Positions 5,416-32,235 of a stretch of DNA of 35,044 nucleotides are shown here, in pieces. The DNA is from Bacteroidota bacterium (lineage in GTDB: Bacteria; Bacteroidota; Bacteroidia; Chitinophagales; Chitinophagaceae). The notes under the pieces are model-generated. The model made no database searches. It was not told where the DNA came from and saw only the letters and a list, made by a program, of their open reading frames with translations. Made by a program: the position numbers and the translations under genes. Each line of letters starts with the position of its first letter. The stretch's first letter is position 1. Location: the NCBI GenBank assembly GCA_013289065.1, contig JABDAP010000020.1, positions 1 to 35,044 of the forward strand, in the 5' to 3' direction.

Positions 5416-5517
5416 GTGAATCGTGAGTCGGCAGTCGGCAGTCGTGAGTGGTGGATAATGAACTTTTTACTGACGACTCACGGCTGACGCTTCACGGCTG
5501 CCGATTCACAACTCACC
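5416..5517. repeat. heptad-word inverted repeat H1 (GTGAGTC/GGCAGTC words)
   Basis: Left arm GTGAATC GTGAGTC GGCAGTC GGCAGTC GTGAGTG (5416-5450). Right arm ACTGACG ACTCACG GCTGACG CTTCACG GCTGCCG ATTCACA ACTCACC (5469-5517). Confidence 0.9.
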
Positions 5518-5561
5518 GCTGCAATAAAAAATATTTATATTTATCCCCTCAACCCTACACT

Positions 5562-6395
5562 ATGAAACGAACTGCTTTTATTTTTTTTGTATCAGCCATG
5601 CCGGTACTCGGCGTATTACATGCACAAACACATACCGTTGTAAAGAAATGGGCATCGGATACTTTATTCAGGACACCTGAATCTGTTTTGTATGATGCAA
5701 AAGATAAACTGTTATATGTATCGAACATGGATCCGGCATCGGGTGATAAAGGCGGTAAAGGATCGATAGGCAAACTGGGGCTTGATGGAAAGATCATTTC
5801 GCTCGACTGGGTAACGGGCCTCACTTCGCCCAAAGGAATGGGTTTGTATAAGAACGAATTATATGCAGCGGAGTTAACAACGGTTGTGGTGATCGATATC
5901 AACAAAGCACAGGTCATCCGCCGTATACCTGTTGAGGGCGCTGTGTTCTTAAATGATATCAGCGTTGATAAGAATGGCGTAATATATGTAAGCGACAGCC
6001 GTACAATGAAAATACACAGGATCGAAAATGGAAAAGTAACCACGCTGCTGCAAAACATGCAGGGCCCGAATGGTGTACTCGCCGTTGGCGATGAGTTGGT
6101 GTATATTGATAAAGGAAGTTTATTGAAAAGAAGTGCAGACGGCAGCAGCACAAAGATCACCGATGGAATGGATCCGAGCACAGATGGGATTGAAATGGTA
6201 AAACCCAATGAATACCTGGTAAGTTCCTGGAATGGTATTGTATATTATGTATATGCAGACGGCCACAAAGATATTTTATTTGATACACGGCCGGAAAAGG
6301 TCAATAGTGCTGATATTGGTTATGATCCAAAGAACCATATCATGTATGTGCCAACATTTTTTAAGAATGGTGTGATTGCGTATGAGGTGAAGTAG
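5562..6395 (+). CDS. SMP-30/gluconolactonase-like beta-propeller protein
   Basis: Track ORF 5448..6395 trimmed to the ATG giving a signal peptide (MKRTAFIFFVSAMPVLGVLHAQ). Repeated propeller-like motifs (GVIYVSDSRTMKIHRI). Confidence 0.75.
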   Translation: MKRTAFIFFVSAMPVLGVLHAQTHTVVKKWASDTLFRTPESVLYDAKDKLLYVSNMDPASGDKGGKGSIGKLGLDGKIISLDWVTGLTSPKGMGLYKNELYAAELTTVVVIDINKAQVIRRIPVEGAVFLNDISVDKNGVIYVSDSRTMKIHRIENGKVTTLLQNMQGPNGVLAVGDELVYIDKGSLLKRSADGSSTKITDGMDPSTDGIEMVKPNEYLVSSWNGIVYYVYADGHKDILFDTRPEKVNSADIGYDPKNHIMYVPTFFKNGVIAYEVK

Positions 6396-6406
6396 GATAT
6401 TCTTAT

Positions 6407-6475
6407 CCGCCCCTGCCCCTGAAGGGGTTTGAGTTTACCATAAAAAATCCTTTTCCCCTTCAGGGGCGGGGGTAA
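6407..6475. terminator. GC-rich hairpin P1 (CCCCTGAAGGGG family), candidate bidirectional terminator
   Basis: GCCCCTGCCCCTGAAGGGG ... CCCCTTCAGGGGCGGGGG between two convergent genes. Confidence 0.7.
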
Positions 6476-6485
6476 CTATGGCAAA

Positions 6486-7304
6486 CTAATAATTTCTTTT
6501 ATACCAACCATCTTCAACAAGATAGGATGCGGTTGTACCATTACCGGTTCTGAATTTTGTTTTGATACCTCTTCTTGTATCGATCCCCGGAAGAAAGCAA
6601 ATGAAATGAAGATGCGGGCCGCGTGTATAACCGGTGTTGCCGCTTAATGCGATCGGGTCGCCTTTATTTACGGAATCTCCGGGTTGTACCAATGCGCCGT
6701 TGTGCCTGAGATGGCTGTAATCCGCAATGGTTCCATCGGAGTGAAGAATTAAAATATGGTTGGCCATCTGTTTACACTCTTCGCGTAAACAGCTTTCACT
6801 GTACTGTTGAACAACAGCGATAACGATGCCGCTTCTTGCTGCTTTTACATTGGTTCCTTCCGGCATATTAAAATCCAGTGCGTTTTCATTTTGGTGTGTG
6901 AATTGCCCGTTATAACCCTGGTCTATCCTGAAGTTCGATCCTTTTTTATAAGGAAGGTCGTAAACATAATTCCTGTCGTAATTAGTCTGGTGCACGTTTC
7001 CAAACACTGCTTTATAATCGTATGCGTAACCGGTTCTGCCTTTTTTGATGCGCGATAATTCAACCAGTTTAATTTTATTGCCTTGCGGGATGATATAAAT
7101 ATGATCGAACGATTCATCTGCGATAAGGTTGTCAAGGCTCAGCGTTAACTGAACAGATACCGTACAATATTCATTGTTATCAGCATACAACACAATTCTG
7201 TCGCCTTCCTTTTCAGCAATCACTTTTATATTATTTTGCGAAAAGGCAAGAATGCTTTTAAAAAAGAAAAAACAAATGAATAATATTTTAACGGAATCTT
7301 TCAG
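6486..7304 (-). CDS. M23 family peptidase (LytM-type), probably secreted; start codon uncertain
   Basis: HQNENALDFNMPEGTNVKAARSGIV...GPHLHF is the M23 core. The track starts at GTG 7223, but the frame continues upstream as KDSVKILFICFFFFKSILAFSQNNIK, a signal peptide, with no ATG/GTG/TTG. A CTG lies at 7304 and an ATA at 7286. Confidence 0.85.
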   Translation of the reverse strand: MKDSVKILFICFFFFKSILAFSQNNIKVIAEKEGDRIVLYADNNEYCTVSVQLTLSLDNLIADESFDHIYIIPQGNKIKLVELSRIKKGRTGYAYDYKAVFGNVHQTNYDRNYVYDLPYKKGSNFRIDQGYNGQFTHQNENALDFNMPEGTNVKAARSGIVIAVVQQYSESCLREECKQMANHILILHSDGTIADYSHLRHNGALVQPGDSVNKGDPIALSGNTGYTRGPHLHFICFLPGIDTRRGIKTKFRTGNGTTASYLVEDGWYKRNY

Positions 7305-7309
7305 TAATG

Positions 7310-7428
7310 TTTCAGTTTAATAATTTTACTATACGCTACAGCTAATTACTACGCCTTCGCGCCTGCGTGAGAAAAATGCACGCAAAGGCGCGAAGGCGCA
7401 GTTTTGATTTGTTGGATCTTAAACTGGT
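7310..7428 (+). repeat. ~120-bp nested inverted-repeat element, copy E2
   Basis: TTCAGTTTAATAATTTTACTATACGC...ACGCCTTCGCGCCTGCGTGAGAAAAATGCACGCAAAGGCGCGAAGGCGCAGTTTTGAT...TTAAACTGGT aligns over its full length with E3. Confidence 0.8.
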
Positions 7429-7455
7429 ATTCTATCCATTTCCCGAGGTTTCTCA

Positions 7456-16654: not shown

Positions 16655-17626
16655 ATGTATTTTAAAACTAACTGGTTCCCGGTATTATTGAGTGCGGTGA
16701 TTGTATTGGCCATCGCCGATGCAGTTTGGGATCATTATGATGCATCAGGAACATCTACCACATCTGCTGCTGATTGCTGGACAGGCGCCGGCCCCAACCA
16801 GATACCGGTTGATGCAAATGGCGCGATGATCCGTTACGGAAGGGATCTTATCGCAAATACTTCCTTCTATCTTGGGCCGAAAGGAACGGTGATGCATATC
16901 AGTAATGGCATGAATTGCCAGAACTGCCATCTCGAAGCGGGCACCAAACCCTGGGGAAATAATTATGGCGCAGTTGCATCAACCTATCCAAAATTCAGGG
17001 AAAGATCCGGGCGTAAAGAAAGTATTGAAAAAAGAGTGAATGATTGCATTGAAAGAAGCCTCAACGGCCGCGCGATAGACAGCAGCAGTAAAGAAATGCG
17101 CGCAATTGCTGCTTATATCAAATGGCTCGGAAAAGAAGTTCCTATGGGAAGCAAACCAAAGGGTTCGGGCATTATGGAACTAACTTATTTATCAAGAGCC
17201 GCCGATCCTGCCAATGGAAAAACGGTGTATGTTGCTTATTGCGAAAGATGTCATGGAAAAAATGGCGAGGGACAAATAAATATTGATAACGCCGGTTATG
17301 CTTATCCGCCACTATGGGGAAACAACAGTTATAATTCCGGCGCTGGATTGTTTCGTTTATCAAGATTGGCGGGATATGTAAAGAACAATATGCCCAATCC
17401 GCTCAACTATCACAACCCCGAACTTACTGATGAAGAATCATGGGATGTGGCGGCTTATATCAACTCACAACCCAGGCCCACGCACGATCTCAGCAAAGAC
17501 TGGCCAAGGATCGCCGGCAAACCATTCGATCATCCTTTTGGCCCTTATGCAGATACGTTTAGCGAAATGCAGCATAAATACGGGCCGTTTGCGGAAATAG
17601 TGAAGGCAGGTAAAAAAAGTAAATAA
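16655..17626 (+). CDS. di-haem c-type cytochrome, thiosulfate dehydrogenase (TsdA)-like
   Basis: Two CXXCH motifs (CQNCH, CERCH); GRDLIANTSFYLGPKG...NGMNCQNCHLEAGTKPWGNNY...RVNDCIERSLNGR resembles TsdA. Confidence 0.8.
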   Translation: MYFKTNWFPVLLSAVIVLAIADAVWDHYDASGTSTTSAADCWTGAGPNQIPVDANGAMIRYGRDLIANTSFYLGPKGTVMHISNGMNCQNCHLEAGTKPWGNNYGAVASTYPKFRERSGRKESIEKRVNDCIERSLNGRAIDSSSKEMRAIAAYIKWLGKEVPMGSKPKGSGIMELTYLSRAADPANGKTVYVAYCERCHGKNGEGQINIDNAGYAYPPLWGNNSYNSGAGLFRLSRLAGYVKNNMPNPLNYHNPELTDEESWDVAAYINSQPRPTHDLSKDWPRIAGKPFDHPFGPYADTFSEMQHKYGPFAEIVKAGKKSK

Positions 17627-17660
17627 AGTAAATATTGTATGTAGTTCAAATGATAATCTA

Positions 17661-17698
17661 TAATTACTAATTATTAATTATTAACTACTAATTAATAG
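17661..17698. repeat. heptad-word repeat H2 (TAATTAT)
   Basis: TAATTAC TAATTAT TAATTAT TAACTAC TAATTAA TAG in strict 7-nt register. Confidence 0.9.
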
Positions 17699-18187
17699 CC
17701 GCATCATCCAATCAACCTGCACATCCTCTCCTAATAAAAATTCGTGTTCGCCAAATTTTTGAAAGCCGCATTTTGTATAGAACTGAATAGCGTTTGGATT
17801 GTGTTCCCATACGCAGAGCCAGATAAATTTTTTGTGTTTGTTTTTTGAATATGCGATCGCAGCATTCATCAATGCTTTACCGATCCCTTGCCCGATAAAA
17901 GAAGTAACGGCATATAATCGTGCTATTTCAATCGCATTTTCTTTCGTATCATCTTTCAAAAAAATATAGCCGGCCGGCTGATCATTTACATAAGCAAGTA
18001 AAAATGTATTTCCCGATTCTCCTACCTGTGCCATCAGTTGTTCTTTGCTGAACTGTTCTGCAAAGAATTTATCCATGTTTTCTTTTGTATTGTGATGCGC
18101 ATATGTATGATAAAATGTTTGATGGCTGATATCAGCGATCAATTCAGCGTCGGCAATTGCAGCGGTGCGGATATTTATCTGATCCAT
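17681..18187 (-). CDS. GNAT family N-acetyltransferase
   Basis: IARLYAVTSFIGQGIGKALMNAAIAYSK...WEHNPNAIQFYTKCGF. Confidence 0.9.
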   Translation of the reverse strand: MDQINIRTAAIADAELIADISHQTFYHTYAHHNTKENMDKFFAEQFSKEQLMAQVGESGNTFLLAYVNDQPAGYIFLKDDTKENAIEIARLYAVTSFIGQGIGKALMNAAIAYSKNKHKKFIWLCVWEHNPNAIQFYTKCGFQKFGEHEFLLGEDVQVDWMMRLLISS

Positions 18188-18217
18188 TGAAATAATTATT
18201 GTGTGATCAACCCTGTA

Positions 18218-18613
18218 TCAGAATTCTTTCGGAACCTGCTGAATACCGATTATAAAAATAATAACACAACCCGTCAGCACGCATGCATGGGCAAACAAAA
18301 AACCAACCGCGATCCAATGGATCACGGTAAAAAAAGAGAGAAAAATACCTTCTACGATAATAAAGTAGGCAAAATTACGGGTCTTATACAGTGTACAGAT
18401 AACGGCTACGATGCTGAATACACCCACTAGAAAAAATACGACCCAGCCCAATACTGCATAGTTAGAGAATACCGACACTTTGATCATTTCCTGGGGATAA
18501 GGAAAAAGCAACGAGTCGTCAGGCTGATGCGTTGCCATGCGAAGCCCACGGACGAGGCCGAAGATCGCAGATATGGATAATAAGAAAACGGAGATTTTCC
18601 GGGAACGTTGCAT
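18218..18613 (-). CDS. hypothetical membrane protein
   Basis: 131 aa with about four hydrophobic helices; no family recognised. Confidence 0.55.
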   Translation of the reverse strand: MQRSRKISVFLLSISAIFGLVRGLRMATHQPDDSLLFPYPQEMIKVSVFSNYAVLGWVVFFLVGVFSIVAVICTLYKTRNFAYFIIVEGIFLSFFTVIHWIAVGFLFAHACVLTGCVIIFIIGIQQVPKEF

Positions 18614-18691: not shown

Positions 18692-19882
18692 TCAATTGTC
18701 AATTAATTCTATCACCATGGCACTTGCACCGCCACCGCCATTGCAAATACCTGCGGCGCCTATTTTTCCGCCATGTTGTTTCAACACATTGATCAAGGTA
18801 ACAATAATTCTTGCACCACTGCAACCTAACGGATGTCCTAATGAAACTGCGCCTCCATGTACATTTACTTTTGCAGGATCCAGTTTCATCTTTTGAATAT
18901 TTGCGATACCTACAACGGAAAATGCTTCGTTCAATTCTGTAAAATCAATATCGCTCATCTGCAAGCCTGCTTTGGCAACTGCTTTCGGAACGGCGAGTGA
19001 TGGTGTGGTAGTGAACCATTCAGGCGCCTGTTCGGCATCTGCATAACTGCGTATCACAGCAAGTGGTTTGATACCCATCGCATCCGCTTTTTCTTTACTC
19101 ATCAAAACAAGCGCTGCGGCGCCATCATTCATAGTTGATGCATTGGCCGCTGTTACGGTTCCGTCTTTTGTGAAAGCAGGTTTCAATTCGGGTATCTTAT
19201 CAAACTTTACATTAAATGCTTCTTCGTCTTTTGCAAATTTGATGGGATCGCCTTTGCGCTGCGGAATGTTTACCGGTACTATTTCAGCATCAAAATAACC
19301 TTTGCTCCATGCCGATTGGCTGCGTTGATAGCTTTCTGTTGCAAATGCATCCTGTTCTTCGCGGCTGATATTACATTCTTTTGCGCAGAGTTCGGCAGCA
19401 TTACCCATTGCATAATTATGATACACATCTGTCAGCCCGTCTTTCGCGAGCCCATCGATCAGATTCACATTACCATATTTATTACCCCAACGCATATTCG
19501 CGTTATAAAAAGGTACATTACTCATACTTTCCATTCCGCCTGCAACAATAATATCGGCGTCACCCAAAAGAATTGTTTGCGCAGCCTGTGCTATGGCTTT
19601 CATGCCACTGGCGCAAACTTTATTTACTGTTGTGGCAATAACATTATCAGGTAAGCCGGCAAATTTAGATGCCTGCCTGGCGGGTGCCTGGCCTGTGTTG
19701 GCCTGTAACACACAACCCATCAAAACTTCCTGTACATCTGTTGGTTTGATACCGGCTTTTTCAACTGCGGCTTTAATGGCTAGCGCACCTAATTGCGGCG
19801 CAGAAAAATCTTTGAGGCTGCCTCCAAAACTACCGATCGGTGTACGAACGGCTGAAACAATATAAACGATCCTGCTACTCAT
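18692..19882 (-). CDS. acetyl-CoA C-acyltransferase (thiolase)
   Basis: VNKVCASGMKAI, NVHGGAVSLGHPLGCSGARI, GICNGGGGASAMVIE. Confidence 0.95.
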   Translation of the reverse strand: MSSRIVYIVSAVRTPIGSFGGSLKDFSAPQLGALAIKAAVEKAGIKPTDVQEVLMGCVLQANTGQAPARQASKFAGLPDNVIATTVNKVCASGMKAIAQAAQTILLGDADIIVAGGMESMSNVPFYNANMRWGNKYGNVNLIDGLAKDGLTDVYHNYAMGNAAELCAKECNISREEQDAFATESYQRSQSAWSKGYFDAEIVPVNIPQRKGDPIKFAKDEEAFNVKFDKIPELKPAFTKDGTVTAANASTMNDGAAALVLMSKEKADAMGIKPLAVIRSYADAEQAPEWFTTTPSLAVPKAVAKAGLQMSDIDFTELNEAFSVVGIANIQKMKLDPAKVNVHGGAVSLGHPLGCSGARIIVTLINVLKQHGGKIGAAGICNGGGGASAMVIELIDN

Positions 19883-19916
19883 TATGTATTATTTGAGACG
19901 CAAATATACGGAAATG

Positions 19917-19934
19917 AACTAACGCCTGTTAGTT
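19917..19934. promoter_or_regulatory. candidate operator AACTAAC-GCCT-GTTAGTT
   Basis: Perfect 7-bp dyad with 4-nt spacer, 35 bp upstream of the thiolase start. Confidence 0.45.
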
Positions 19935-20039
19935 GTATCGAAACGGGAATTTTGAGCCACAAATACGGGGTTTTTCACGTATGGAACAATTGTTGCAAAG
20001 TTTACTTTTAGCTCCTAAGCAATTGTAAACGCACTATTT

Positions 20040-20186
20040 ATGGAACATCAATACATCTCACAGATGACTGCCAACCCCGAACTCGTTTCACTTGGCTTCA
20101 AAGGTTTATTCTCTGTTATTTTACTCGCAGTAATGTTCTTCCCGGAAAAAGATAAAAAGTTAACGGAGAAGCTAGAGAAGGAATAG
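20040..20186 (+). CDS. 48-aa single-pass membrane miniprotein
   Basis: Manually translated: MEHQYISQMTANPELVSLGFKGLFSVILLAVMFFPEKDKKLTEKLEKE*. One TM segment and a charged tail; not in the ORF track. Confidence 0.55.
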   Translation: MEHQYISQMTANPELVSLGFKGLFSVILLAVMFFPEKDKKLTEKLEKE

Positions 20187-20189
20187 TTT

Positions 20190-20238
20190 ATAGACCATAG
20201 TCCATGGACCATGGTCTATGAACTATGAACTATGGCCT
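20190..20238. repeat. heptad-word repeat H3 (ATGGACC/ATGAACT)
   Basis: ATAGACC ATAGTCC ATGGACC ATGGTCT ATGAACT ATGAACT ATGGCCT in strict 7-nt register between convergent genes. Confidence 0.9.
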
Positions 20239-20243
20239 AATAT

Positions 20244-21308
20244 CTATACAATAAAGTTCCAACCGAACTTGTCTTCTTCTTTTCCTGTGCGGAGGCGTTC
20301 TATTTTTAATTTCAGCCTTGATGAGATACTTGTTTTTGTATAAGCCGGCAAACTGTAATCAAGGCCTTCGATATGTATCGTTCCGATAGGCGCTACAACT
20401 GCGGCAGTACCTGCACCAAATGCTTCGGTGATGGTGTTATTTTCAAATGCGTTGACCAATTCATCTACCGATATCCTGCGTTCTTCCGTTTTATAGGCAA
20501 GATCGCGGGCAATCTCCAGTAACGAATCACGTGTGATGCCGTCTAAAATAGAATCAGATAAAGGTGGCGTGACCAATGTATCATTGATCACAAACATAGC
20601 ATTCATCATTCCTGATTCTTCGATGTATTTATTTTCTTTGGCATCGGTCCATAAAACCTGATCGTAGCCTTCTTTCCTCGCAAGATGGGTTGGATAAAAT
20701 GCGCCGCCATAATTGCCGCCGCATTTTGCAAAACCGGTTCCGCCTTTTCCGGCGCGTATATAATTGGTTTCTACTTTTACCTTTATCGGCTCCGCATATA
20801 ATGATGGAACCGGCCCCGTAAAAATAATAAAGCGGTATTCTTCTGCAACCTTAACACCAAACCTTGCTTCACTGGCAAATACAAAAGGGCGGAGATACAG
20901 GGCAGTACCGGGTTCTGAAGGTACCCATAACTGATCCATTTCAACCAGGCGAGCAATTCCTTCAACAAATATTTCCTTTGGTACAACTGCCATGCACATT
21001 CTTTCGAGCGAACGCACAAAGCGGTCGTAATGTTTATCCATCCGGAAGATATTGATGCGACCATCTTCCATGCGGAACGCTTTCATTCCCTCGAAAACTG
21101 TTTGTCCATAGTGCAATGCCAGTGCGGATGGGCTCATAACAAGATTTCCAAACGGTACAATATGCGGTGTTTGCCATTCGCCGTTTGCGTAATCACAAAC
21201 AAGCATATGGTCGGAAGTATACTTTCCAAATTCCAGGTTAGTAAAGTCTACCTCGCCGATCTTTGAATGGGTTGTTTTGCGGATGCGGATGTCTGTGAGA
21301 AGTTCCAT
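20244..21308 (-). CDS. ilvE: branched-chain amino acid aminotransferase
   Basis: LHYGQTVFEGMKAFRMEDGRINIFRMDKHYDRF, YLRPFVFASEARFGVKVAEEYRF, EESGMMNAMFVIND, GTAAVVAPIG. Confidence 0.95.
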   Translation of the reverse strand: MELLTDIRIRKTTHSKIGEVDFTNLEFGKYTSDHMLVCDYANGEWQTPHIVPFGNLVMSPSALALHYGQTVFEGMKAFRMEDGRINIFRMDKHYDRFVRSLERMCMAVVPKEIFVEGIARLVEMDQLWVPSEPGTALYLRPFVFASEARFGVKVAEEYRFIIFTGPVPSLYAEPIKVKVETNYIRAGKGGTGFAKCGGNYGGAFYPTHLARKEGYDQVLWTDAKENKYIEESGMMNAMFVINDTLVTPPLSDSILDGITRDSLLEIARDLAYKTEERRISVDELVNAFENNTITEAFGAGTAAVVAPIGTIHIEGLDYSLPAYTKTSISSRLKLKIERLRTGKEEDKFGWNFIV

Positions 21309-21309
21309 T

Positions 21310-21416
21310 TTATTTATTGGTTTATTCGTTTACTGGTTTATTTGTTTACTGGTTTATTTGTTTACTGGTTTATTCGTTTACTGGTTCATTTGTTTGTTGG
21401 TTTATTCATTTATGAG
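21310..21416. repeat. octad/16-nt direct tandem repeat O1 (GGTTTATT-CGTTTACT)
   Basis: GGTTTATT CGTTTACT GGTTTATT TGTTTACT GGTTTATT TGTTTACT GGTTTATT CGTTTACT GGTTCATT TGTTTGTT GGTTTATT. Confidence 0.92.
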
Positions 21417-21926
21417 TTCGGGGGTGATCAAATATTTATATTTTTCAACTGCTGCGATAGCATCTTCAATGTCGATTGTCATTTTTACATTGGCTCTTGC
21501 ATAAATACCGGTTTCAGGTTGCAGGTGTTTAAATCCGATCTTTTCATATAGCTTAATTGCACCGGCATTTTTTGTGTTGGAATAGAGTATTACTTTTTTC
21601 GCACCTAATGCACGTGCCTTTTCAAAACTTGCATAGCTGATCGCTTCTGCTATTCCTTTACGGCGGAAATTGAGGTCAACAGCCATTTTGGTGAATTCAT
21701 AGGTTGTATCATCGATCTTACGTAATCCTACCGTGCCGGCTACTTCGCCATTATACAATGCCATCAGTATAGCGCCGCCTTTTTGAAGGATGGCGTCTTC
21801 CGGATTGCGCAGAACATATTCATCGATCGGTTCCATGGTAAACAATTCTTCGATCCATTGCCGGTTGAATTTTTCAAAATAAGGCTGATGGCCCAATTGA
21901 TAATCCACGATAGTTATCAGAGACAT
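21402..21926 (-). CDS. GNAT family N-acetyltransferase
   Basis: FTKMAVDLNFRRKGIAEAISYASFEKARALGAKKVILYSNTKNAGAIKLYEKIGFK. Confidence 0.9.
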   Translation of the reverse strand: MSLITIVDYQLGHQPYFEKFNRQWIEELFTMEPIDEYVLRNPEDAILQKGGAILMALYNGEVAGTVGLRKIDDTTYEFTKMAVDLNFRRKGIAEAISYASFEKARALGAKKVILYSNTKNAGAIKLYEKIGFKHLQPETGIYARANVKMTIDIEDAIAAVEKYKYLITPELINE

Positions 21927-22042
21927 ATTTCTGTTGGTTTTAATTGACAGAACAAAATTGTTACAAAAAATAATAATAAAACAGATTCAGTTTTTGTATT
22001 TTTGGCTATATCAGATTTGATCACGCGATAAAAATCAACAGT

Positions 22043-23479
22043 ATGAAATTCAACGGCGGCGACCACCTTTACATGCAGGTAGCAGAGGGATTAGAAAAAA
22101 TGATCTCGGAAGAAGTATTGCTTATCGGCGACAAACTTCCTTCCGTTCGTGTATTGAGTGAAGAGAACGGGATCAGCATGGGCACTGCGTTCCAGGCGTA
22201 TTATCATCTGGAGGCAAAGGGCCTGATCGAGTCGAGGCCGAAGTCGGGTTATTATGTCCGGTTCAATCATAAACGTTTTCCGGCGCTTCCTAAAATGATC
22301 CCAACAGATGCATTGTCGCATGAGGTGAGTGTGAAAGAAATGATCAATTCCATTTATGGTGATATCAGCGCTGCAGGTGTGATCAATTTTGCGCTGGCAG
22401 TACCTGATGCTTCGTTACTGCCTGTTGCCAAGATCAATAAATCGGTGATGCAGGCGCTTCGCAATTCAAAAGATCATTGCATCAATTATGAACAGACACA
22501 GGGAAATTTTGAACTGCGTAAACAGATCGCCAAACTTTCTTTTAACTGGGGCGGCAAAGTAAAACCTGATGAAGTAGTGATCACCAGCGGCTGTTTGCAG
22601 GCCATTACCATGTGTCTGAAAGCCGTTACCAAATACGGCGATACCGTTGCAGTTGAATGCCCCACTTATTTTGGCATTTACCAGGCTATTGAAAACATCG
22701 GTTTAAAAGTTGTGGAGATCACATCCGATCCGTTAAAAGGAGCCGATCTCGATTGCCTCGAAAAAACCATCAAAAAATTTCCTGTGAAAGCCTGCGTATT
22801 CATTCCCAATTATAATAACCCGATGGGCAGTTGCATGCCTGATGAAAATAAAAAGAAATTAGTAAGCATAATTACACGGCATAATATTCCGCTGATCGAA
22901 GATGATATTTATGGCGAAATGTATTTTGGAAAGAACCGCCCGCGTACCTGCAAATATTATGATACAAAAGGGCTGGTGATGCATTGTTCTTCACTGACAA
23001 AATCCTTAGCGCCGGGCTACCGCATCGGCTGGGCTATCCCCGGAAAATTTATTGATGAGGTAAAACAAACAAAACGTATCCAGAATATCAGTTGCCCAAC
23101 CATTACCCAGGCAGCGATGGCGCATTTTTTACAGAACGGGCGATATGAATATCATTTAAAGAACCTGCGGAAAGCTTTGCATACGCAGGGCCTTCGTTAT
23201 ATGCAGGCAGTGATCGATCATTTTCCGGCCGATACAAAAGTGTCGAGGCCTCAGGGTGGATTTATTTTGTGGGTTGAACTGAATAAAAAGATCAACACGT
23301 TTCAGCTTCGCACGGAAGCGATGAAACATAAGATATCCATTGTACCGGGAAGGATATTTTCAGTGAGTACCAATTATACAAACTGTATCCGCATCAGTTT
23401 TGGCAAACCGTTTTCAGAAGATTCGGAATATGGGTTGATGATGCTGGGTAAGCTGATCAAAAAAATGTTGCAGAGTTAA
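22043..23479 (+). CDS. MocR/GntR-type regulator with PLP-dependent aminotransferase domain
   Basis: N-terminal wHTH (GDKLPSVRVLSEENGISMGTAFQAYYHLEAKGLIESRPKSGYYV) fused to a fold-type I aminotransferase (NYNNPMGSCMP, SLTKSLAPGYRIGW). Confidence 0.93.
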   Translation: MKFNGGDHLYMQVAEGLEKMISEEVLLIGDKLPSVRVLSEENGISMGTAFQAYYHLEAKGLIESRPKSGYYVRFNHKRFPALPKMIPTDALSHEVSVKEMINSIYGDISAAGVINFALAVPDASLLPVAKINKSVMQALRNSKDHCINYEQTQGNFELRKQIAKLSFNWGGKVKPDEVVITSGCLQAITMCLKAVTKYGDTVAVECPTYFGIYQAIENIGLKVVEITSDPLKGADLDCLEKTIKKFPVKACVFIPNYNNPMGSCMPDENKKKLVSIITRHNIPLIEDDIYGEMYFGKNRPRTCKYYDTKGLVMHCSSLTKSLAPGYRIGWAIPGKFIDEVKQTKRIQNISCPTITQAAMAHFLQNGRYEYHLKNLRKALHTQGLRYMQAVIDHFPADTKVSRPQGGFILWVELNKKINTFQLRTEAMKHKISIVPGRIFSVSTNYTNCIRISFGKPFSEDSEYGLMMLGKLIKKMLQS

Positions 23480-23492
23480 TGAGGAGGCGTTC

Positions 23493-23544
23493 ATAGACCA
23501 TGGTTGGACTATGGACTATGGTCTATGTCTATGGACTATTCACT
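23493..23544. repeat. heptad-word repeat H4 (ATGGACT/ATGGTCT), same family as H3
   Basis: ATAGACC ATGGTTGG ACT ATGGACT ATGGTCT ATGTCT ATGGACT ATTCACT, with one +1 and one -1 register slip. Confidence 0.85.
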
Positions 23545-24378
23545 CGTAACCAACTGTATCCCTGTTTTTGTAAACGCGATCTTTTGTTGTTTGTATAAAT
23601 TGCCTGTTGTCATTTTGAAGGTCTTTTTGCTCATCCCGAAAAAATCATAGATCTGCTGCGGATCTGATTTATCATGATACGGCAGGTAACCGTTATTTTC
23701 TGCAAGCAGCCTTAATATTTTTCCTGATTCATCTTCCACTTTTTGAAAACCGGGTTTACCGAGTACCACATCAATTTTATTATCGGGGCGGATGGTTTTT
23801 ATAAAGCCCTGCATCCTGTCGCCGATATGTAAAGTGGTAAATATTTCATTCGCATGTAACACACCGGTGTGGCGGTTGTTGATGATCATTACATAACCCA
23901 GTTCCGATTGACGGTAAACCAAGAGGTCAACAATATCTTTTTCTTTTACGGACAGTTCATCATTGCTCAGCAATGATTCGATCTTTTCAGTAGCAGCTAC
24001 CCTGCCCGTTTGTTCATCGATATATAATTTTACGAGGTATTCTTTTCCCTCATGCATGCCGCTAACCTGTTTTGATTTGGGAACGAAAAGATCTTTCATT
24101 AATCCCCAATCTAAAAAAGCGCCTTGTTCTGTTACAGAAACCACTTTCATTTTTACGATATCGCCCACAGCCGCTTTTGCTTTCTGCGTTGTAGCGATCA
24201 AACGGTTATCTGAATCGTGGTAAACGAATACCGCCAACTCATCGCCGATGCGTAGTGTGCGCGGCGCAAAGCGCTTGGGCAAAAGGATCCCTTCGGCGCC
24301 ATCATCAAGGTAAAATCCAAAATCTACTTTACGGGAAACTTTTAGTGTGTTGTATTGTCCAACTTGTACGGGGTTCAT
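23536..24378 (-). CDS. S1 RNA-binding domain protein, CvfB-like
   Basis: Repeated S1-like domains (GDIVKMKVVSVTEQGAFLDWGLMKDLFVPKSKQ...) with a C-terminal wHTH-like region (PQQIYDFFGMSKKTFKMTTGNLYKQQKI). Confidence 0.85.
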   Translation of the reverse strand: MNPVQVGQYNTLKVSRKVDFGFYLDDGAEGILLPKRFAPRTLRIGDELAVFVYHDSDNRLIATTQKAKAAVGDIVKMKVVSVTEQGAFLDWGLMKDLFVPKSKQVSGMHEGKEYLVKLYIDEQTGRVAATEKIESLLSNDELSVKEKDIVDLLVYRQSELGYVMIINNRHTGVLHANEIFTTLHIGDRMQGFIKTIRPDNKIDVVLGKPGFQKVEDESGKILRLLAENNGYLPYHDKSDPQQIYDFFGMSKKTFKMTTGNLYKQQKIAFTKTGIQLVTSE

Positions 24379-24454
24379 AATCTATCTGGTTATTCCGGCC
24401 AGCAAATGTACAATTGTTTATTTTGACAGGTTTTCGGTTAAAGAATATGGTAGT

Positions 24455-24577
24455 CTCAGTTTGATATTTTTAGTATGACTTTTTGTGCAATAACTGCGCC
24501 TCCGCGCCTTTGCGTGAGAAAAATGCACGCAAAGGCGCGGAGGCGCAGTTTTGATCCATTTTGAAATTCAAACTGAG
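24455..24577 (+). repeat. ~120-bp nested inverted-repeat element, copy E3
   Basis: Outer CTCAGTTTGA...TCAAACTGAG. Inner perfect 25-bp stem AACTGCGCCTCCGCGCCTTTGCGTG with 9-nt loop (24492-24550). Confidence 0.88.
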
Positions 24578-24651
24578 GCGCTACCCGGAATGTTTATATG
24601 TTAGCAACTTTCCGTGATATACAAACAAAGCTTTTGATATTTTGCATTTGT

Positions 24652-25548
24652 ATGATCCAACCAATCAAAGCTGCCTTTCTCGCTATCTTTTTACTGACCG
24701 CTACTGTTTTGTTTTCGCAGAATGTGAATGGACACTGGTACGGCATTGGCATGATACAGACCACCAAAGACTATAATTCTTATTTATCTGAACTGATCCT
24801 GCGCCAAAAAGGAAAAACAGTGTGGGGCGAATTTGATTATTATTTTAAAGACAGTCTTGTTAAGGTACCGCTTAATGGGAGCTTTGATGAACAGACACGA
24901 AAATTAAACATCAGGCCTTTTTCGATGATCTATTATAAATCACCCAATGCGCGGAACAGTATTGATTGTAACATGTCGGGGAATTTTAGTTTGGTTACGT
25001 CAAAAGCAGAATCGGTTTTATCCGGTGCATTGGCCACAGATGCGGATCATAAATACACCGTTCCTGATATTAATTTTCGTTTTACAAGGTCGGATGATAC
25101 GGCTTCATTGGTAATAAAAGATGAACCCGAGCCAACAAAAACGCCTGATACCATTATTACCGCTGCACCGGTTTCGCCACAAATGGAAACGGTACAGGCT
25201 TTTGCAAAACGCGGAAAGATCTATACCAAAGAATTAGAAGTAACCAATAATACGCTGCGGCTTGAGTTGTATGATAATGGCGAGATAGATTATGATTCTG
25301 TTTCCGTGTTCTTCAATGATAAACTGATCCTGCCAAAAACAATGCTTACGCACCGTGCGATCCGCATAACCATTGAGCTTGATCCAACACGCGAATTCAA
25401 TGAACTCAGCATGTTTGCAGAAAATTTAGGAATGATACCACCCAATACTGCGGCGCTGATTGTGTATGACGACAAAACACGTTATGAAACTTTACTGACA
25501 AGTGATCTTAGCAAGAGTGCGACTTTGAAAATAAAAAAGAAGCCATAA
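24652..25548 (+). CDS. hypothetical secreted protein
   Basis: Track ORF 24598..25548. The ATG at 24652 gives a compact signal peptide (MIQPIKAAFLAIFLLTATVLFSQ). Confidence 0.6.
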   Translation: MIQPIKAAFLAIFLLTATVLFSQNVNGHWYGIGMIQTTKDYNSYLSELILRQKGKTVWGEFDYYFKDSLVKVPLNGSFDEQTRKLNIRPFSMIYYKSPNARNSIDCNMSGNFSLVTSKAESVLSGALATDADHKYTVPDINFRFTRSDDTASLVIKDEPEPTKTPDTIITAAPVSPQMETVQAFAKRGKIYTKELEVTNNTLRLELYDNGEIDYDSVSVFFNDKLILPKTMLTHRAIRITIELDPTREFNELSMFAENLGMIPPNTAALIVYDDKTRYETLLTSDLSKSATLKIKKKP

Positions 25549-25551
25549 CTG

Positions 25552-26028
25552 TTATTTATAACTGACCAACTCAGCATTTAATTTCTTCGCAAGGCCTTTT
25601 GCACCCCAGCCCATTACCACGTCGTGGTTGTAATTAAATGCAGGCTTGAGCATGAAAGAAAGATAATTCATCCATGCTTTATTGGTAAATACCGTCCAGT
25701 TATATTGAATGTACGTGATGCCGTTCTTTTCTTCGAAGAACCACTCGCCTTCACCTTCCAGCTCGCCAAAGGCTTCGCCTTTCATGTATTTATATTTTTC
25801 CAGTTTCGTTAAACGCATGTTGAATGCAAGCTCGTAAGGAAGTATGCTGCGCCAGGTATATTCGCGAACACCGCCAACTCCATCGGCATCGCCTTTTTCG
25901 AGTTCTTTTACTTTGATCACGCCCTTCCACCAGCCGGGCCATTCGAGTGAGGCGTGAATTGAGCCCCATACTTCTGTCAGCGGCGCTTTAATTTTCCAAC
26001 GCGTTATGAATGCATATTGTGTAGCCAT
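25552..26028 (-). CDS. SRPBCC family (polyketide cyclase-like) protein
   Basis: TRWKIKAPLTEVWGSIHASLEWPGWWKGV... Confidence 0.8.
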   Translation of the reverse strand: MATQYAFITRWKIKAPLTEVWGSIHASLEWPGWWKGVIKVKELEKGDADGVGGVREYTWRSILPYELAFNMRLTKLEKYKYMKGEAFGELEGEGEWFFEEKNGITYIQYNWTVFTNKAWMNYLSFMLKPAFNYNHDVVMGWGAKGLAKKLNAELVSYK

Positions 26029-26070
26029 AAAAATGGTTTAGATAATATACGATAAACAAACATTTTTGGT

Positions 26071-28587
26071 TTAGCCAAATAGTTCGGGTTGCGCATTTTC
26101 ATCTTTGGGCTTCTGTTCCCATTCCATTTCAATTGTTTTGCTGTAGTCTGTAAGCTTGGCTCCCACAGCTTTCCAGCCCATTACTTCTACCATCTTCGCC
26201 ACTTTGAATTTGGCTTTGCGAACCGTTTGGCCGCGGCCCGTTTGTACAACTAATATCGGCTCTTCATCAGTTGTTACGGCTTCCAGCCGGTTGGCTTCTC
26301 CTTCTTTGATAAAGGAGAATTGCGTTTTCAATGTGGTTGTTTCTATTTTAAAACGTTTGATATTGTACTGCTGCTTATCATTATCCAGGTACACAGCACT
26401 GATGATCTTTTCCGGAACAAACTTTTCGATCAAAGTAATTTTTTCCGGTTCAAACCTTTGTGTGATCTCGGTGTCTGTTAATTCATAAGTTCCATCGTTA
26501 TAGAATATGATGATCTTCTCATCTTCAAAACTGCCGAGGTATTGTCCCTTCTCTTCCGTATTCAACCGCCCGAACTTATCATCGAACCATAATTTACGGC
26601 CGGCAAGTGTGCTCTTACCTGCTTCTTTTAGTTTCACGGTTTTTACCGGGTATTTGGTAACCTGGTTGCCCATACTGCCGCGGCCCTTGATCTCCAGTTC
26701 TTCAAAATAGAAATCGAGTTCTTTGATCCGTGCGCTGCAATTCGGGCTCAAAATAATTTTTACAACTTCTGCTTCGCCATTCGGATTGGCGCTGAAATAA
26801 TGCACCCTGCTTTTATCAGAGCCTTTTGTAAGGTCGTATTCTTTTTCGCGGGTAATTCCGGTCACATTAAAACGCTTGGCATAACTCACGCCTGATTTAC
26901 CATCAACATAGATCATGTTGTAAGTAGTACGTTCATCATTTTTTTCAAACACGGCGGCATGAATGATGTCTTTTCCGATAAAGACTTTATCAGAAACCTT
27001 CACCACTTTCATCGTGCCTCCTTTGGTAAAGGCGATGATATCATCATAATCGGAACACTCGCAAAGAAATTCGTCTTTCTTCAAACCTGTACCAATAAAG
27101 CCTTCCGAGCGGTTGAGGTATAATTTGGTATTGGCGATCGCTACATGTTTTACCTGTATCGTATCAAACTCCCTGATCTCTGTTTTCCTTTCTCTTCCCT
27201 TGCCGTATTTTTTTAACAGCATTTCAAAATAACCCACCGCGAAATCTGTAAGGTTATCCAGATCAAATTTTACCTGCTTTATGTCTGTTTCAATGGCTTT
27301 GATCTGTTCTATCAGTTCATTGATATCGAGCCGGTAAATTCTTCTTACCGGTTTTTCAGTAAGCTTGATAATGTCTTCCCGTTCTATCTTCCGTTTTAAT
27401 TTTTTCTTGTACGGCTCGAATGCTCTGTCGATCGCTTCGATCACTTTATCCCATGTAGCATGTTTCTGTTCGAGCTCTTTGTAGATCTTTTCTTCAAAGA
27501 ATATTTTTTCAAGCGAGGTATAATGCCATTTATCTTCCAGCTCGCGCAGCTTTATTTCGAGTTCTTTTTTTAATATTGCTTTTGTATTCTCCGTAGAAAC
27601 TGTCAGCAATTCTTTCGCTGTGAGAAACTGCGGCCTGTCTGCAACGATCACGCAGGCATTGGGCGAGATGCTTACTTCGCAATCCGTAAAAGCATACAGT
27701 GCATCGATGGTGATATCGGGAGAAATGCCGGGCGCGAGATCGATCTGGATCTCAACATCGGCAGCCGTTACATCGATCACTTTTTTTATTTTGATCTTTC
27801 CCTGGTCGTTTGCCTTGGTAATGCTTTCCATTAACTGCGTGGTGGTTACGCCATATGGCACATCACGGATCACTAATGTTTTTTTATCCAGTTCTTCCAC
27901 ATGCGCGCGTACCCTTACTTTGCCGCCGCGTTTGCCATCATTGTAATTCGCCACATCGATCATGCCACCGGTCTGGAAGTCGGGATACAATTCAAACTTC
28001 CTTCCACGCAAACATTTTATCGATGCATCTATCAATTCGCAAAAATTATGCGGTAAAATTTTTGTTGATAGCCCCACCGCAATCCCATCCGCTCCCTGCG
28101 CGAGCAGCAACGGAAATTTCATCGGCAATGTGATGGGTTCATTTTTTCTGCCGTCATAACTCAACTGCCATTCGGTTGTTTTATTATTGAACGCAACTTC
28201 GAGAGCGAACTTCGACAAACGCGCTTCAATATATCTTGAAGCGGCCGCTTCATCACCTGTTCTTACGTCGCCCCAGTTGCCCTGTGTTTCTATCAACAGG
28301 TCTTTTTGCCCGAGGTTTACCAATGCATCGCCGATACTCGCATCGCCATGCGGATGATACTGCATACTCTGTCCGATAATATTGGCCACTTTATTAAAAC
28401 GCCCATCGTCCATTTCCTTCATAGCATGAAGAATGCGCCGCTGCACGGGTTTCAGGCCATCTTCAATAGCAGGCACTGCACGTTCCAGTATCACATACGA
28501 TGCATAATCGAGGAACCAGTTCTTGTATTGCCCCTGCACACCGGTCTCATTTTCAAATACCCTGTTCTCTTGTTTTTCTTTCGCCAT
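26071..28587 (-). CDS. parC: DNA topoisomerase IV subunit A
   Basis: YASYVILERAVPAIEDGLKPVQRRILHAM, YHPHGDASIGDALVNLGQKD, catalytic Tyr context ASRYIEARLSK. Confidence 0.92.
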   Translation of the reverse strand: MAKEKQENRVFENETGVQGQYKNWFLDYASYVILERAVPAIEDGLKPVQRRILHAMKEMDDGRFNKVANIIGQSMQYHPHGDASIGDALVNLGQKDLLIETQGNWGDVRTGDEAAASRYIEARLSKFALEVAFNNKTTEWQLSYDGRKNEPITLPMKFPLLLAQGADGIAVGLSTKILPHNFCELIDASIKCLRGRKFELYPDFQTGGMIDVANYNDGKRGGKVRVRAHVEELDKKTLVIRDVPYGVTTTQLMESITKANDQGKIKIKKVIDVTAADVEIQIDLAPGISPDITIDALYAFTDCEVSISPNACVIVADRPQFLTAKELLTVSTENTKAILKKELEIKLRELEDKWHYTSLEKIFFEEKIYKELEQKHATWDKVIEAIDRAFEPYKKKLKRKIEREDIIKLTEKPVRRIYRLDINELIEQIKAIETDIKQVKFDLDNLTDFAVGYFEMLLKKYGKGRERKTEIREFDTIQVKHVAIANTKLYLNRSEGFIGTGLKKDEFLCECSDYDDIIAFTKGGTMKVVKVSDKVFIGKDIIHAAVFEKNDERTTYNMIYVDGKSGVSYAKRFNVTGITREKEYDLTKGSDKSRVHYFSANPNGEAEVVKIILSPNCSARIKELDFYFEELEIKGRGSMGNQVTKYPVKTVKLKEAGKSTLAGRKLWFDDKFGRLNTEEKGQYLGSFEDEKIIIFYNDGTYELTDTEITQRFEPEKITLIEKFVPEKIISAVYLDNDKQQYNIKRFKIETTTLKTQFSFIKEGEANRLEAVTTDEEPILVVQTGRGQTVRKAKFKVAKMVEVMGWKAVGAKLTDYSKTIEMEWEQKPKDENAQPELFG

Positions 28588-28595
28588 ATGTTAAT

Positions 28596-28730
28596 TTGAA
28601 AATCTGAAAATCTGAAAATCTGAAAATGCAACAGGCCGGTGCCGCATTTTCAAATTCGCAAATTCTCAAATTCTTCTTCTTTTATTTTTTCGGACTGATA
28701 CCATTTTCAAATCCTCAAATTTTCAAATTC
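28596..28730. repeat. octad-word inverted repeat O2 (CTGAAAAT / ATTTTCAA)
   Basis: TTGAAAAT CTGAAAAT CTGAAAAT CTGAAAAT (28596-28627); ATTTTCAA ATTCGCAA ATTCTCAA (28646-28669); ATTTTCAA ATCCTCAA ATTTTCAA (28703-28726). Confidence 0.9.
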
Positions 28731-29091
28731 TATAAGTATCGTCGCGGCCATCTGCCAATGCATTCAGTTCAAGTACGATAATATCCGTATCCGCGATTAC
28801 TTCATGCCAGGCCCATGCCTCTACTGTTACCATGGCTGGTGCGATGGCTCTGCAGGTTCCTTTTTTTGTTTCATCGCGCACATCAAACCAGTTGATGGTT
28901 ATTTCGCCCTGCATGATAATGATGATCTCAGGGTTTTTATTCTTTGCCAACCCTTTGTGATAATGCTTCGCATTGTGCGTACCTGCTTTTCTATAACCCA
29001 CCACAAACTGCCCGCTGCGGTCCGTATCAAAATAATGCGTGGCCCCGCGTTCATCCTCTGCGATCTTTGGTACTGGTGTTACTTCTACCAT
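28723..29091 (-). CDS. cupin-like small protein
   Basis: AGTHNAKHYHKGLAKNKNPEIIIIMQGEITINWFDV...EAWAWHEVIADTDIIVLEL looks like a cupin core. Confidence 0.65.
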   Translation of the reverse strand: MVEVTPVPKIAEDERGATHYFDTDRSGQFVVGYRKAGTHNAKHYHKGLAKNKNPEIIIIMQGEITINWFDVRDETKKGTCRAIAPAMVTVEAWAWHEVIADTDIIVLELNALADGRDDTYRI

Positions 29092-29124
29092 ACATTAATT
29101 ATTACCTGTTGCAATATTAAAATA

Positions 29125-29249
29125 CTCTGCGTTAACTCTGCTTCTCTGCACCTCTGCGGTGAAAACGATTTTAAAATAATCGCTTGTTCAATTTTGCAAA
29201 CCCTTTTCACCGCAGAGCCGCAGAGTTTGCACAGAGTTGCGCAGAGAAA
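29125..29249. repeat. inverted repeat of CTCTGC words
   Basis: CTCTGCGTTAACTCTGCTTCTCTGCACCTCTGCGGTGAAAA ... TTTTCACCGCAGAGCCGCAGAGTTTGCACAGAGTTGCGCAGAGAAA. Confidence 0.85.
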
Positions 29250-29262
29250 TTCATTTATAACG

Positions 29263-30102
29263 TCATGATTCCGTTTCTTCTGCCGTAACATTTCCACCAC
29301 CCGGGAATGTTACGGTTAATTCTTTCCATCCTTTTGCCCAATCGCCGGTTACTTCCAGTTTTCCTTCAGCAGTTAATTCACGGATCCTCCACACTAAAAA
29401 AACATCACCGGTCTTTACTTTCATTTTATTCAGCGTGTTACTGATCAGCCTGGTAAGTTTTTGAGCTGTACCGGTTACATTCACTAAAATGTCTTTATCA
29501 TAAAAATCCACTTCTTTACCAACTAATTTTTTGCCGCCTTCGAGAAAACGCACCATTGAATTTTCATTGCAGATCTTTTTCCATTCGTCCGGATCAACCT
29601 CAAACTCGCTCAAAGTTATGGGCCGCGCTAATTTTTTGGCTTTGATAAATTCTTTCGGCTGTATCTCGAAAAGATAAGTGGGATAAAAAATATTTCCTTT
29701 CTCATTAAAGAATGGAAGATTATTCAGGTACAATACTTCTATCCTGCCGTGATATTCTTTCAGCTGGCTCATCAGCCAGTAATAACCACACACATCATGT
29801 GTATTCTGCCCCATCCAGATCCATACTTTTTCTTCAGGGTTCTCATCGAGCCTCTGCAATAAATGATGAACAGTTAATTTATCATCAACAATAGCCAGCT
29901 GTTCCGTGTATGGAGAAAACTCCAGCAACATTTTCCACCAATTGCCGCGCTGTTGATAGCCTTCAGCACTATATATATCAACCAGGGGCCCAACGGCAAA
30001 ATCATCGTTGATCTCAATGATATCACCCTGTAAACTTTCATCCAGTTCTATTGCCTTCTTTAATGCTTGTGTGTTTGCGGGTTCGAAAACTATGTGAATC
30101 AT
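29263..30102 (-). CDS. DUF1835 domain-containing protein
   Basis: IHIVFEPANTQALKKAIELDESLQGDIIEINDDFAVGPLVDI is a DUF1835-like N-terminus. Confidence 0.8.
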   Translation of the reverse strand: MIHIVFEPANTQALKKAIELDESLQGDIIEINDDFAVGPLVDIYSAEGYQQRGNWWKMLLEFSPYTEQLAIVDDKLTVHHLLQRLDENPEEKVWIWMGQNTHDVCGYYWLMSQLKEYHGRIEVLYLNNLPFFNEKGNIFYPTYLFEIQPKEFIKAKKLARPITLSEFEVDPDEWKKICNENSMVRFLEGGKKLVGKEVDFYDKDILVNVTGTAQKLTRLISNTLNKMKVKTGDVFLVWRIRELTAEGKLEVTGDWAKGWKELTVTFPGGGNVTAEETES

Positions 30103-30104
30103 TG

Positions 30105-30195
30105 TAATTAGTAGTTAGTATTTAATAGTTAGTAATTAAAGTATCCATAGCAGCAGTAAATAATTACTAATTATTAATTACTAACTACTAATTTT
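30105..30195. repeat. heptad-word inverted repeat H5 (TAATTAG / TAATTAC)
   Basis: TAATTAG TAGTTAG TATTTAA TAGTTAG TAATTAA (30105-30139); TAATTAC TAATTAT TAATTAC TAACTAC TAATTTT (30161-30195). Confidence 0.9.
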
Positions 30196-32072
30196 TCTAC
30201 CAGGTCCAGGTCAACCCGTAAGTTGTCAATGATCTTATCCTGCCGTTCGGGTGTATTTTTTCCCATGTAAAAATCAAGGATATCATGAATGGCTACTTCA
30301 TTGTTGATGCTGATCAGTTGTTTGCGCATATCCTGGCCGATGAACTTTCCAAACTCTTCCGGGCTTATCTCGCCCAATCCTTTGAAGCGTGTGATCTCAG
30401 GTTTGTTTCCTAATTTCTGAACGGCTTTCTGTTTTTCGCTCTCATCATAACAATAGATCGTTTCCTGTTTATTGCGAACGCGGAACAACGGCGTTTCTAA
30501 AATATATACATGCTCATGCTTAACAAGATCAGGAAAGAATTGCAGGAAGAATGTCATCAGCAACAAACGGATATGCATGCCATCCACATCGGCATCGGTT
30601 GCAATGATCACCTGGTTATAACGTAGCCCTTCCAGGCCGTCTTCTATGTTCAATGCATGCTGCAGTAGATTGAATTCTTCATTTTCATACACCACTTTTT
30701 TGGTGAGGCCAAAAGAATTCAATGGCTTACCACGCAGGCTGAACACAGCCTGTGAATCTACATTGCGCGATTTGGTAATGCTGCCGCTCGCGCTGTCGCC
30801 TTCCGTAATAAAAATGGTCGAATTATTCTGCAAGGCAATAAATTCTTCTTTGTTCTTTGCCGGCAATTCATCATTCAGGTGTACGCGGCAGTCGCGCAGC
30901 TTTTTATTATGCAGGTTGGCTTTCTTGGCACGTTCGTTCGCTAATTTTTTGATGCCGGCCAGTTCTTTTCTTTCCCTTTCATTTTGTTCGATACGTTTTT
31001 TCAACGCATCAGCAACAGACGGGTTACGGTGTAAAAAATTATCCAGCTCTTTGGCTAAAAAGTCAAGTATAAAATTTTTCATGCTCGGGCCGCCTTCATA
31101 CACATTCTGCGAACCCAGTTTTGTTTTTGTCTGGCTTTCAAATACCGGCTCCTGCACACGCACGGAAACTGCGGCTACAATACTGGTGCGGATATCCGAT
31201 GCCTCATAATCCTTCTTATAAAAATCGCGCACCACTTTCATATACGCTTCCCGGAATGCCTGCTGGTGCGTTCCGCCCTGCGTGGTGTATTGGCCGTTTA
31301 CAAAAGAAAAAATATCCTCGCCATAATCATTGTTATGCGATATGGCCACTTCAATATCTTCTCCTTTTAAATGTATGATCGGGTAACGAAGTTCATCCGG
31401 ATTTGTTTTGCGCTGCAACAGATCGAGCAATCCATTCCTGCTCACATATTTTTTACCATTGAAATGCATGGCCAGCCCTGCATTCAGGTAACAATAGTTC
31501 CACAACTGGTTATCTAAATAGTCGTGTATGTAATGAAAATTGCGGAACACCGTATCATCCGGTGTAAACACTACCAATGTTCCGTTGGGCTCATCGGTTT
31601 TTGTTTCTTTGTATTCTTTTACCAGCACGCCTTTTTCGAACTCGGCTGTTTTCTCTTTGCCATCACGAAATGCGGTCACTTTAAAATACTGGCTCAGGGC
31701 ATTCACCGCTTTCGTACCCACGCCATTCAGCCCAACGCTTTTCTGGAATGCTTTGCTGTCGTACTTCGCGCCGGTATTTATTTTACTCACTACATCCACC
31801 ACTTTCCCCAACGGAATACCGCGGCCATAATCGCGAACGGTTACATTTTTCCCTTCTATCGATAATTCAACCTGTTTGCCATAACCCATCGTGTATTCAT
31901 CAATACAGTTATCGATCACTTCTTTGATCAGCACATAAATACCATCATCCGGCGCGGAGCCATCACCCAGTTTACCGATATACATGCCGGGCCGTAGCCT
32001 GATATGTTCCCGCCAATCCAGCGAGCGGATCGATTCTTCATTGTACTCGAATAAATTCTTCACTTCTGCCAT
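30174..32072 (-). CDS. parE: DNA topoisomerase IV subunit B
   Basis: [85 protein letters not shown]. Confidence 0.93.
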
Positions 32073-32160
32073 GTCTCAATCGTTATTTTTTTACCAGCTT
32101 TTGTTCGTTAATCAACTTCGTTGTGTCACTCACTTGTACGTTCAGTCCGCTATGCAGTTT

Positions 32161-32188
32161 AGTCAGTAGTGAGTGGCCAGTGGTGAGT
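32161..32188. repeat. heptad-word repeat H6a (AGTCAGT/AGTGAGT)
   Basis: AGTCAGT AGTGAGT GGCCAGT GGTGAGT. Confidence 0.75.
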
Positions 32189-32200
32189 AAAAATCACTCC

Positions 32201-32235
32201 AATTATTAATTATTAACTACTTATTATTAATTACC
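32201..32235. repeat. heptad-word repeat H6b (AATTATT)
   Basis: AATTATT AATTATT AACTACT TATTATT AATTACC. Confidence 0.8.

Follow-up and report, generated by a model that had tools for sequence, protein, structure and literature searches.

What kind of process writes short, degenerate words in a strict 7-nt register between the genes of a bacterium? The question is raised by a 35,044-nt contig of a Bacteroidota bacterium of the family Chitinophagaceae (JABDAP010000020.1, assembly GCA_013289065.1; hereafter the window), whose spacers hold tracts of such words, named H1 to H6, several of them built as two inverted arms around a loop. The first-pass annotation had treated these tracts as unrelated word families and suggested for them a shared generating mechanism, either templated slippage plus inversion or a dedicated enzyme. 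The window is one whole contig of an incomplete 2.43-Mb metagenome-assembled genome (MAG; 53% complete; host genome G000), and we analysed it alongside samples of 20 kb taken at 40 places on other contigs. Window and samples together amount to 835 kb of the host MAG, of which 90 kb is intergenic. For comparison we used a congener set of 147 species of the host genus (G-numbers denote genomes, L-numbers sampled stretches or loci). Direct reading and TRF both placed the named tracts in the 7-nt register ascribed to them.

The period proved to be a genome-wide property. With first-order Markov shuffles as the null for tract counts, the intergenic DNA of the host MAG held 52 period-7 tracts where 1.8 were expected, as well as 11 tracts of period 8 and four of period 9; other periods gave little apart from one poly-N artefact. 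The excess at 7 and 8 that the annotation had anticipated was thus found, and the flat spectrum that would have spoken against it did not appear. A looser threshold lists 160 tracts in the same sample. Intergenic hairpins numbered 112, as opposed to one in shuffled spacers, and their arms were autocorrelated at lags of 7, 14 and 21 (z of 16, 15 and 11), with a weaker signal at lag 8. Tandem arrays of 7-nt units that are mainly intergenic and exceed chance are what characterises heptameric simple sequence repeats (SSRs), known as short tandemly repeated repetitive (STRR) sequences or long SSRs.

When words were aligned for phase and strand, the families turned out not to be unrelated, as had been annotated, but to share one polar core, A-G-T/C followed by four freer bases. 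A single circular consensus, TAYTNAY, runs across tracts, presenting A-R-T and freer positions on the other strand. The alignment score was 2.51 per tract versus 1.68 ± 0.04 for column-permuted words, a difference that is not a formal z-score because neither dispersed copies nor the two arms of a pair count as independent data. The top triplet at a spacing of seven was AGT, with 47 runs, versus none at spacings of 5, 6 or 8. Column over-dispersion was significant in three genome sets and, the words being of common ancestry, lends weak support to a constraint on the core. In another family of the class (L188-L207), arrays consist of CAGT plus three near-random bases (CAGTAGG, CAGTTTG and CAGTATT among them), and NNNGAAC arrays occur as well, again with a fixed 4-nt core and a free 3-nt part.

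This core also faces a fixed way. Because a palindrome has an identical 5' arm when read from either strand, the choice between AGT and ACT in that arm is meaningful. The 5' arms of 39 period-7 hairpins contained 172 AGT and 12 ACT triplets, and 31 hairpins were AGT-biased, divergent spacers included; not one ACT-first (AGT-last) hairpin was seen among the scoreable period-7 hairpins of the host sample. An unbiased triplet scan gave the same picture in G000 (AGT-first 10:0, TGA 7:0, GAA 4:0), in congeners (AGT 3:0) and in another family within the class (GTT 5:0). With respect to genes, the G content of arms before start codons lay mostly on the other strand (26 antisense versus 10 sense), and arms after stops were weakly biased (42:31).

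Among congeners the trait is switch-like: the pattern (AGTN4)x5 had no match in 104 of the 147 species and 10-240 matches in about 35. No period-7 tract was present in 400 kb of the complete genome G017, and the sampled positives held 24 (G044), 9 (G080), 3 (G090) and 2 (G055) in every 100 kb; in those with high counts, period 7 dominated. Across the phylum, 192 of 297 genomes matched the pattern.

Gain and replacement can be followed at single orthologous sites. The gene parE (30174-32072, minus strand) is of the ParE/GyrB type and, judging by its identity to homologues, probably encodes topoisomerase IV subunit B; we compared its junctions across congeners. The spacer between parE and a DUF1835 gene is short and array-free in many of them, and G000 carries the whole H5 insert, a lineage-specific gain: a plus-strand arm adjoining the DUF1835 start codon (30104-30139), a loop (30140-30160) and a minus-strand arm (30161-30195) that holds the parE stop codon, its words AGTAATT/AGTAGTT reading out of parE. 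Relatives keep the 7-nt register and the AATT core here while the other letters differ, so that AGT, AGG, AGA, ACG or TGT stands beside AATT depending on the species (AGA/AAT in G150, ACG/TGT in G096, AGG/AAA/AAG in G140). Some have a single arm, and others have unrelated words (AGTGAAG in G055, TATAGGG-like in G080). Likewise, spacer 7998 has AGTCTGG words in G000 and AGTTAAT in its sister G104. The proposal that the period is more constrained than the sequence is thereby borne out, and orthologous spacers evolve by array gain and word replacement between relatives, not by point mutation alone. Copy number also varies between relatives in one-unit steps, as in heptameric SSRs.

Arrays occur within genes too, with 15 tracts inside open reading frames (ORFs) in the 835 kb of G000 and none in the 400 kb of G017. 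In an E1 alpha-beta dehydrogenase fusion gene (PF00676, PF02779, PF02780), the array lies in the linker, with AGTCTGG words in G000. Five of nine relatives carry two-armed, in-frame arrays with words of their own (CGTGAGT/CGTCAGT in G140, GGTGAGT in G096, GGTTTGG in G104, AGTCTGG/AGTGAGA in G150, and CGTGAGA with a shortened partner in G095), one has a single arm (G086) and three have no array (G050, G127, G106). Flank-to-flank distances are all equal modulo 3, and the ORFs stay open. Between the arms, the residues KLINTP, TIDFSNP, EILDSP, TINAP and TTINEP (I-D/N-x-P) recur in array-bearing species and are similar to IIDHD and IELNE of array-free ones. In the UvrA gene (L027:16752-19679), the two arms lie 58 bp apart, and an alignment with Thermotoga UvrA pairs the loop-coded IISRIEELLELSDKDLKK with EIYRLEEVPELDKNKR and places each arm in a gap (loop residues IISRIEELLEL versus EIYRLEEVPEL of the solved UvrA). 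At both sites, the loop thus consists of native codons, and only the arms were inserted. TilS and LigA contain in-frame arrays as well. Rickettsia palindromic elements similarly sit in frame within conserved protein genes, but those are homologous units that bring a loop of their own. The present arrays likewise leave the ORFs open; no single homologous family with its own loop was found, the arms flank native codons and the words vary by species. G140 carries the E1 operon region twice (L209, L224), and the two copies differ in array length, one having about ten extra ACTGACG units.

What recurs between sites is the arm. At a dozen loci, members of the AGTCTGG family have constant ends on the outside and string several words together in one order (AGTCTGG-AGTTAGA-AGTCTGG is identical at unlinked loci), but their loops are unrelated, so the shared unit is the arms and not whole hairpins. 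Heptamer loops were shared between hairpins no more than shuffled loops were.

We tentatively read the tracts as one genome-wide class of fast-turnover insertions whose arms are written by 3'-end extension, a reading we consider plausible but short of probable. In their layout, two polar 7-nt arrays flank 15-60 bp, the 5' arm in AGT orientation and the 3' arm its inverse; the flanked DNA is resident in both testable coding sites, and sometimes only one arm is present. Each arm would result from adding the AGT strand, seven bases at a time, to a 3' end. Two ends on opposite strands, separated by 15-60 bp (at staggered nicks, or where a short stretch is gapped or looped), would produce L-(AGTNNNN)n-resident loop-(NNNNACT)n-R, and one end would leave a single arm. 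The words would come from a template common to the whole genome, either other arrays or RNA, which could explain why each genome has its own vocabulary. Ordinary slippage would afterwards alter copy number and homogenise words within an arm, and copies would persist where extra DNA is tolerated, i.e., in spacers, gene ends and protein linkers, with no host function required. We infer extension at two opposite-strand positions because polarity, native loops, single arms, vocabulary and family replacement all fit it. A bolder version, which we think quite improbable, invokes a bacterial enzyme, telomerase-like or template-switching, that would attach heptamers of the genome's own vocabulary, always as the AGT strand, to 3' ends at paired nicks; chromosomes would then be written continuously with polar 7-nt arrays around native DNA, even within essential genes. 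Head-to-head telomere fusions, (TTAGGG)n(CCCTAA)n, also have a G-rich strand that runs inward (5' to 3') from either side, in imperfect short units; the resemblance is an analogy only, with no telomerase known here and a resident loop in the middle.

Several observations weigh against extension at paired ends. We found no enzyme, nick site or template, and a single motif scan over the third of the MAG that was sampled, the only search made for reverse transcriptase families, gave no clear reverse transcriptase. The 31:0 count overstates independence, given that there are only about ten polar families. Conservation of the E1 loop concerns a short, partly degenerate motif, and the TilS and LigA loops are not demonstrably native in alignments. 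Lastly, some hairpins have arms of identical word order (L015:2100, 32/32 pairs), which favours inverted copying of one arm over two independent additions and suggests that inverted copying occurs as well; the UvrA arms differ in word order.

Host replication alone might produce the arrays, through 7-nt slippage (the step proposed to be a polymerase contact length) and fold-back template switching, with hairpin and flap nucleases missing and selection leaving arrays at harmless sites. In E. coli, palindromes and template switching are held in check by SbcCD and ExoVII/ExoI, and among the congeners SbcD scored above the cut-off in just 4 of 147 and the ExoVII large subunit XseA in one. Perfect inverted arms and copy-number expansion are indeed present, and in many bacteria no long SSR unit is reported to be as frequent as the heptamer (Mrazek 2007, via PMC4679880 and PMC4692102). 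However, both nucleases are missing genus-wide, including from repeat-free species, and we therefore rejected their loss as the switch; it is at most permissive. Fold-back copying moreover predicts ACT-first hairpins, of which none was seen, and slippage can neither convert the word family at one codon position nor copy blocks to unlinked sites, making replication alone somewhat unlikely. Of the mechanism first proposed, a shared period-7 process is supported, but templated slippage plus inversion is insufficient, because it leaves strict polarity, genome-specific vocabularies copied in multi-word blocks to unlinked sites and family replacement at the same codon unexplained; the dedicated enzyme suggested beside it is a candidate. 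Mobile palindromes of the repetitive extragenic palindromic (REP) or miniature inverted-repeat transposable element (MITE) type, moved in trans by some transposase and acquiring word repetition later, would be in keeping with the constant outer ends of the AGTCTGG copies, with hairpins whose first letters are AGY (12 of 27, any other phase accounting for only 2-3), with presence or absence between sisters and with in-frame insertion as in Rickettsia. Such an origin is nonetheless unlikely: loops differ between copies and are native in UvrA, leaving no MITE-like homology over the whole length, and no consistent target duplication was visible by eye, although the flanks are too diverged for a firm reading. 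The two Y1 genes of the genome, which resemble REP-associated tyrosine transposases (RAYTs; L021:5880-6090 and L047:15230-15970), are flanked by different, classical REP-like palindromes (CAGCCTAAAGGCTG, GCTGCGGC), and the strong positives G055 and G056 (167 and 128 pattern matches) have no Y1_Tnp match, on which grounds a RAYT/REP origin was rejected. Y1 transposases do not track the array trait among congeners, and the hairpin ends inspected had no GTAG or CGTC tag at the foot.

The tracts could also be selected functional elements, such as bidirectional terminators, stop-codon traps after genes or RNA-binding arrays. Hairpins do fill convergent spacers from stop to stop and are most frequent in them (12 of 83 convergent spacers, 19 of 280 tandem and 6 of 98 divergent), the strand of the 5' arm is richer in stop codons (250 versus 126), and constraint is position-specific, e.g., in the CAGT-NNN arrays. 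Yet AGC-type hairpins retain the polarity though their stops sit on the other strand, as do hairpins in divergent spacers, which led us to reject stop-codon selection as its cause. A known RNA or intrinsic terminator was rejected as well, there being no Rfam match and H2-H6 not being among the terminator-like sites in a scan of 17000-33000. With in-frame copies in UvrA, E1 and TilS and most congeners array-free, we consider functional selection very improbable.

The remaining tracts of the window illustrate the same features. H1 belongs to an AGTCGTG family: its 5' arm (5416-5450, plus strand, the AGT strand) reads GTGAATC, GTGAGTC, GGCAGTC, GGCAGTC, GTGAGTG, and its 3' arm (from about 5470 to 5521, minus strand) has the inverted words CTGACGA, CTCACGG, CTGACGC, TTCACGG, CTGCCGA, TTCACAA, CTCACCG, around a unique loop (5451-5469), heptamer-hairpin loops not being common to different hairpins. 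H2 is a single minus-strand arm (17653-17697) of TAATTAC/TAATTAT words (reverse complement AGTAATT) that overlaps the 3' end of a GNAT gene (17681-18187); in relatives, such words are absent from the orthologous spacer. H3 (20183-20239) is an AGT-first hairpin of near-palindromic words, ATAGACC/ATGGTCT/ATGAACT, and H4 (about 23493-23537), made of TGGACTA words, lies between convergent genes and extends to the 3' end of the gene at 23536-24378. In the parE 5' leader, H6a (32161-32189, plus strand) has AGTGAGT/GGTGAGT words; H6b (32199-32233, minus strand) has AATTATT words, and at its site G104 has both arms of an AATTATT-type hairpin. The window also contains period-8 tracts (7348-7404, 21313-21412, 24492-24550, 28593-28729 and 29136-29246), whose families are separate from the heptamers. 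At least one of these (CTGCGCC...) behaves like an ordinary dispersed palindrome: CTGCGCCTCCGCGCCTTTGCGTG occurs at 7348-7404 and 24492-24550, at L038:14199 and L045:16445 and at junction 9 of G140, and unlike the heptamers it conserves its loop letters while its presence and junctions vary between sisters. A further tract (21313-21412), between aminotransferase and GNAT genes, is a period-8/16 array of GTTTACTG/GTTTATTC with more than six 16-nt units; only about 35 bp stand at this site in G104. Near-identical direct repeats of 95-318 bp were seen at L017:4622-5033 and L027:16209-16751, each within a single spacer.

Heptameric bacterial SSRs are already known, and the comparison with cyanobacterial STRRs was apt. 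STRRs and 7-nt long SSRs (Mazel; Mrazek 2007) are likewise tandem, intergenic and taxonomically patchy, whereas the host tracts have degenerate polar-core words, commonly in arm pairs of fixed polarity instead of simple direct arrays without an inverted partner, with orthologous family replacement and in-frame copies. Our literature search on Bacteroidetes heptamer repeats found only two direct precedents, both closer. The TAACTGA repeats of Beggiatoaceae, some Cyanobacteria and Bacteroidetes (PMC4679880) share AGT in the reverse complement, 7-nt indels, patchiness and orientation before start codons, but are direct repeats of one word, with a single indirect repeat in the type genome. The GGGAATC and GGGGA(C/T)T heptamers of Xanthomonas and Nostoc (PMC4692102) also have their G-rich strand sense after stops and antisense before ORFs, are few in divergent spacers and occupy the same spacers with altered sequence between species; they were studied as quadruplex formers, and the words here are not G-tract. 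REP sequences, their paired form (REPINs) and RAYTs (PMC3733652) offer intergenic palindromes, mostly in tandem or convergent spacers and with several families per genome, but the present tracts lack the tag, are not adjacent to the Y1 genes and have an internal 7-nt register. As far as the papers searched and general knowledge go, polar arrays that come in pairs around native DNA, exchange word families between sister species and keep the reading frame inside essential genes appear undescribed. Bacterial heptamers have been noted for decades without a mechanism; polarity, native loops and in-frame arrays now set sharp constraints on slippage models, and a genus in which about 100 species are free of the repeats and about 40 bear them turns the search for a cause into a gene-association problem. 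In practical terms, the arrays change stop codons, leaders and protein linkers, and they will confuse gene calling and assembly.

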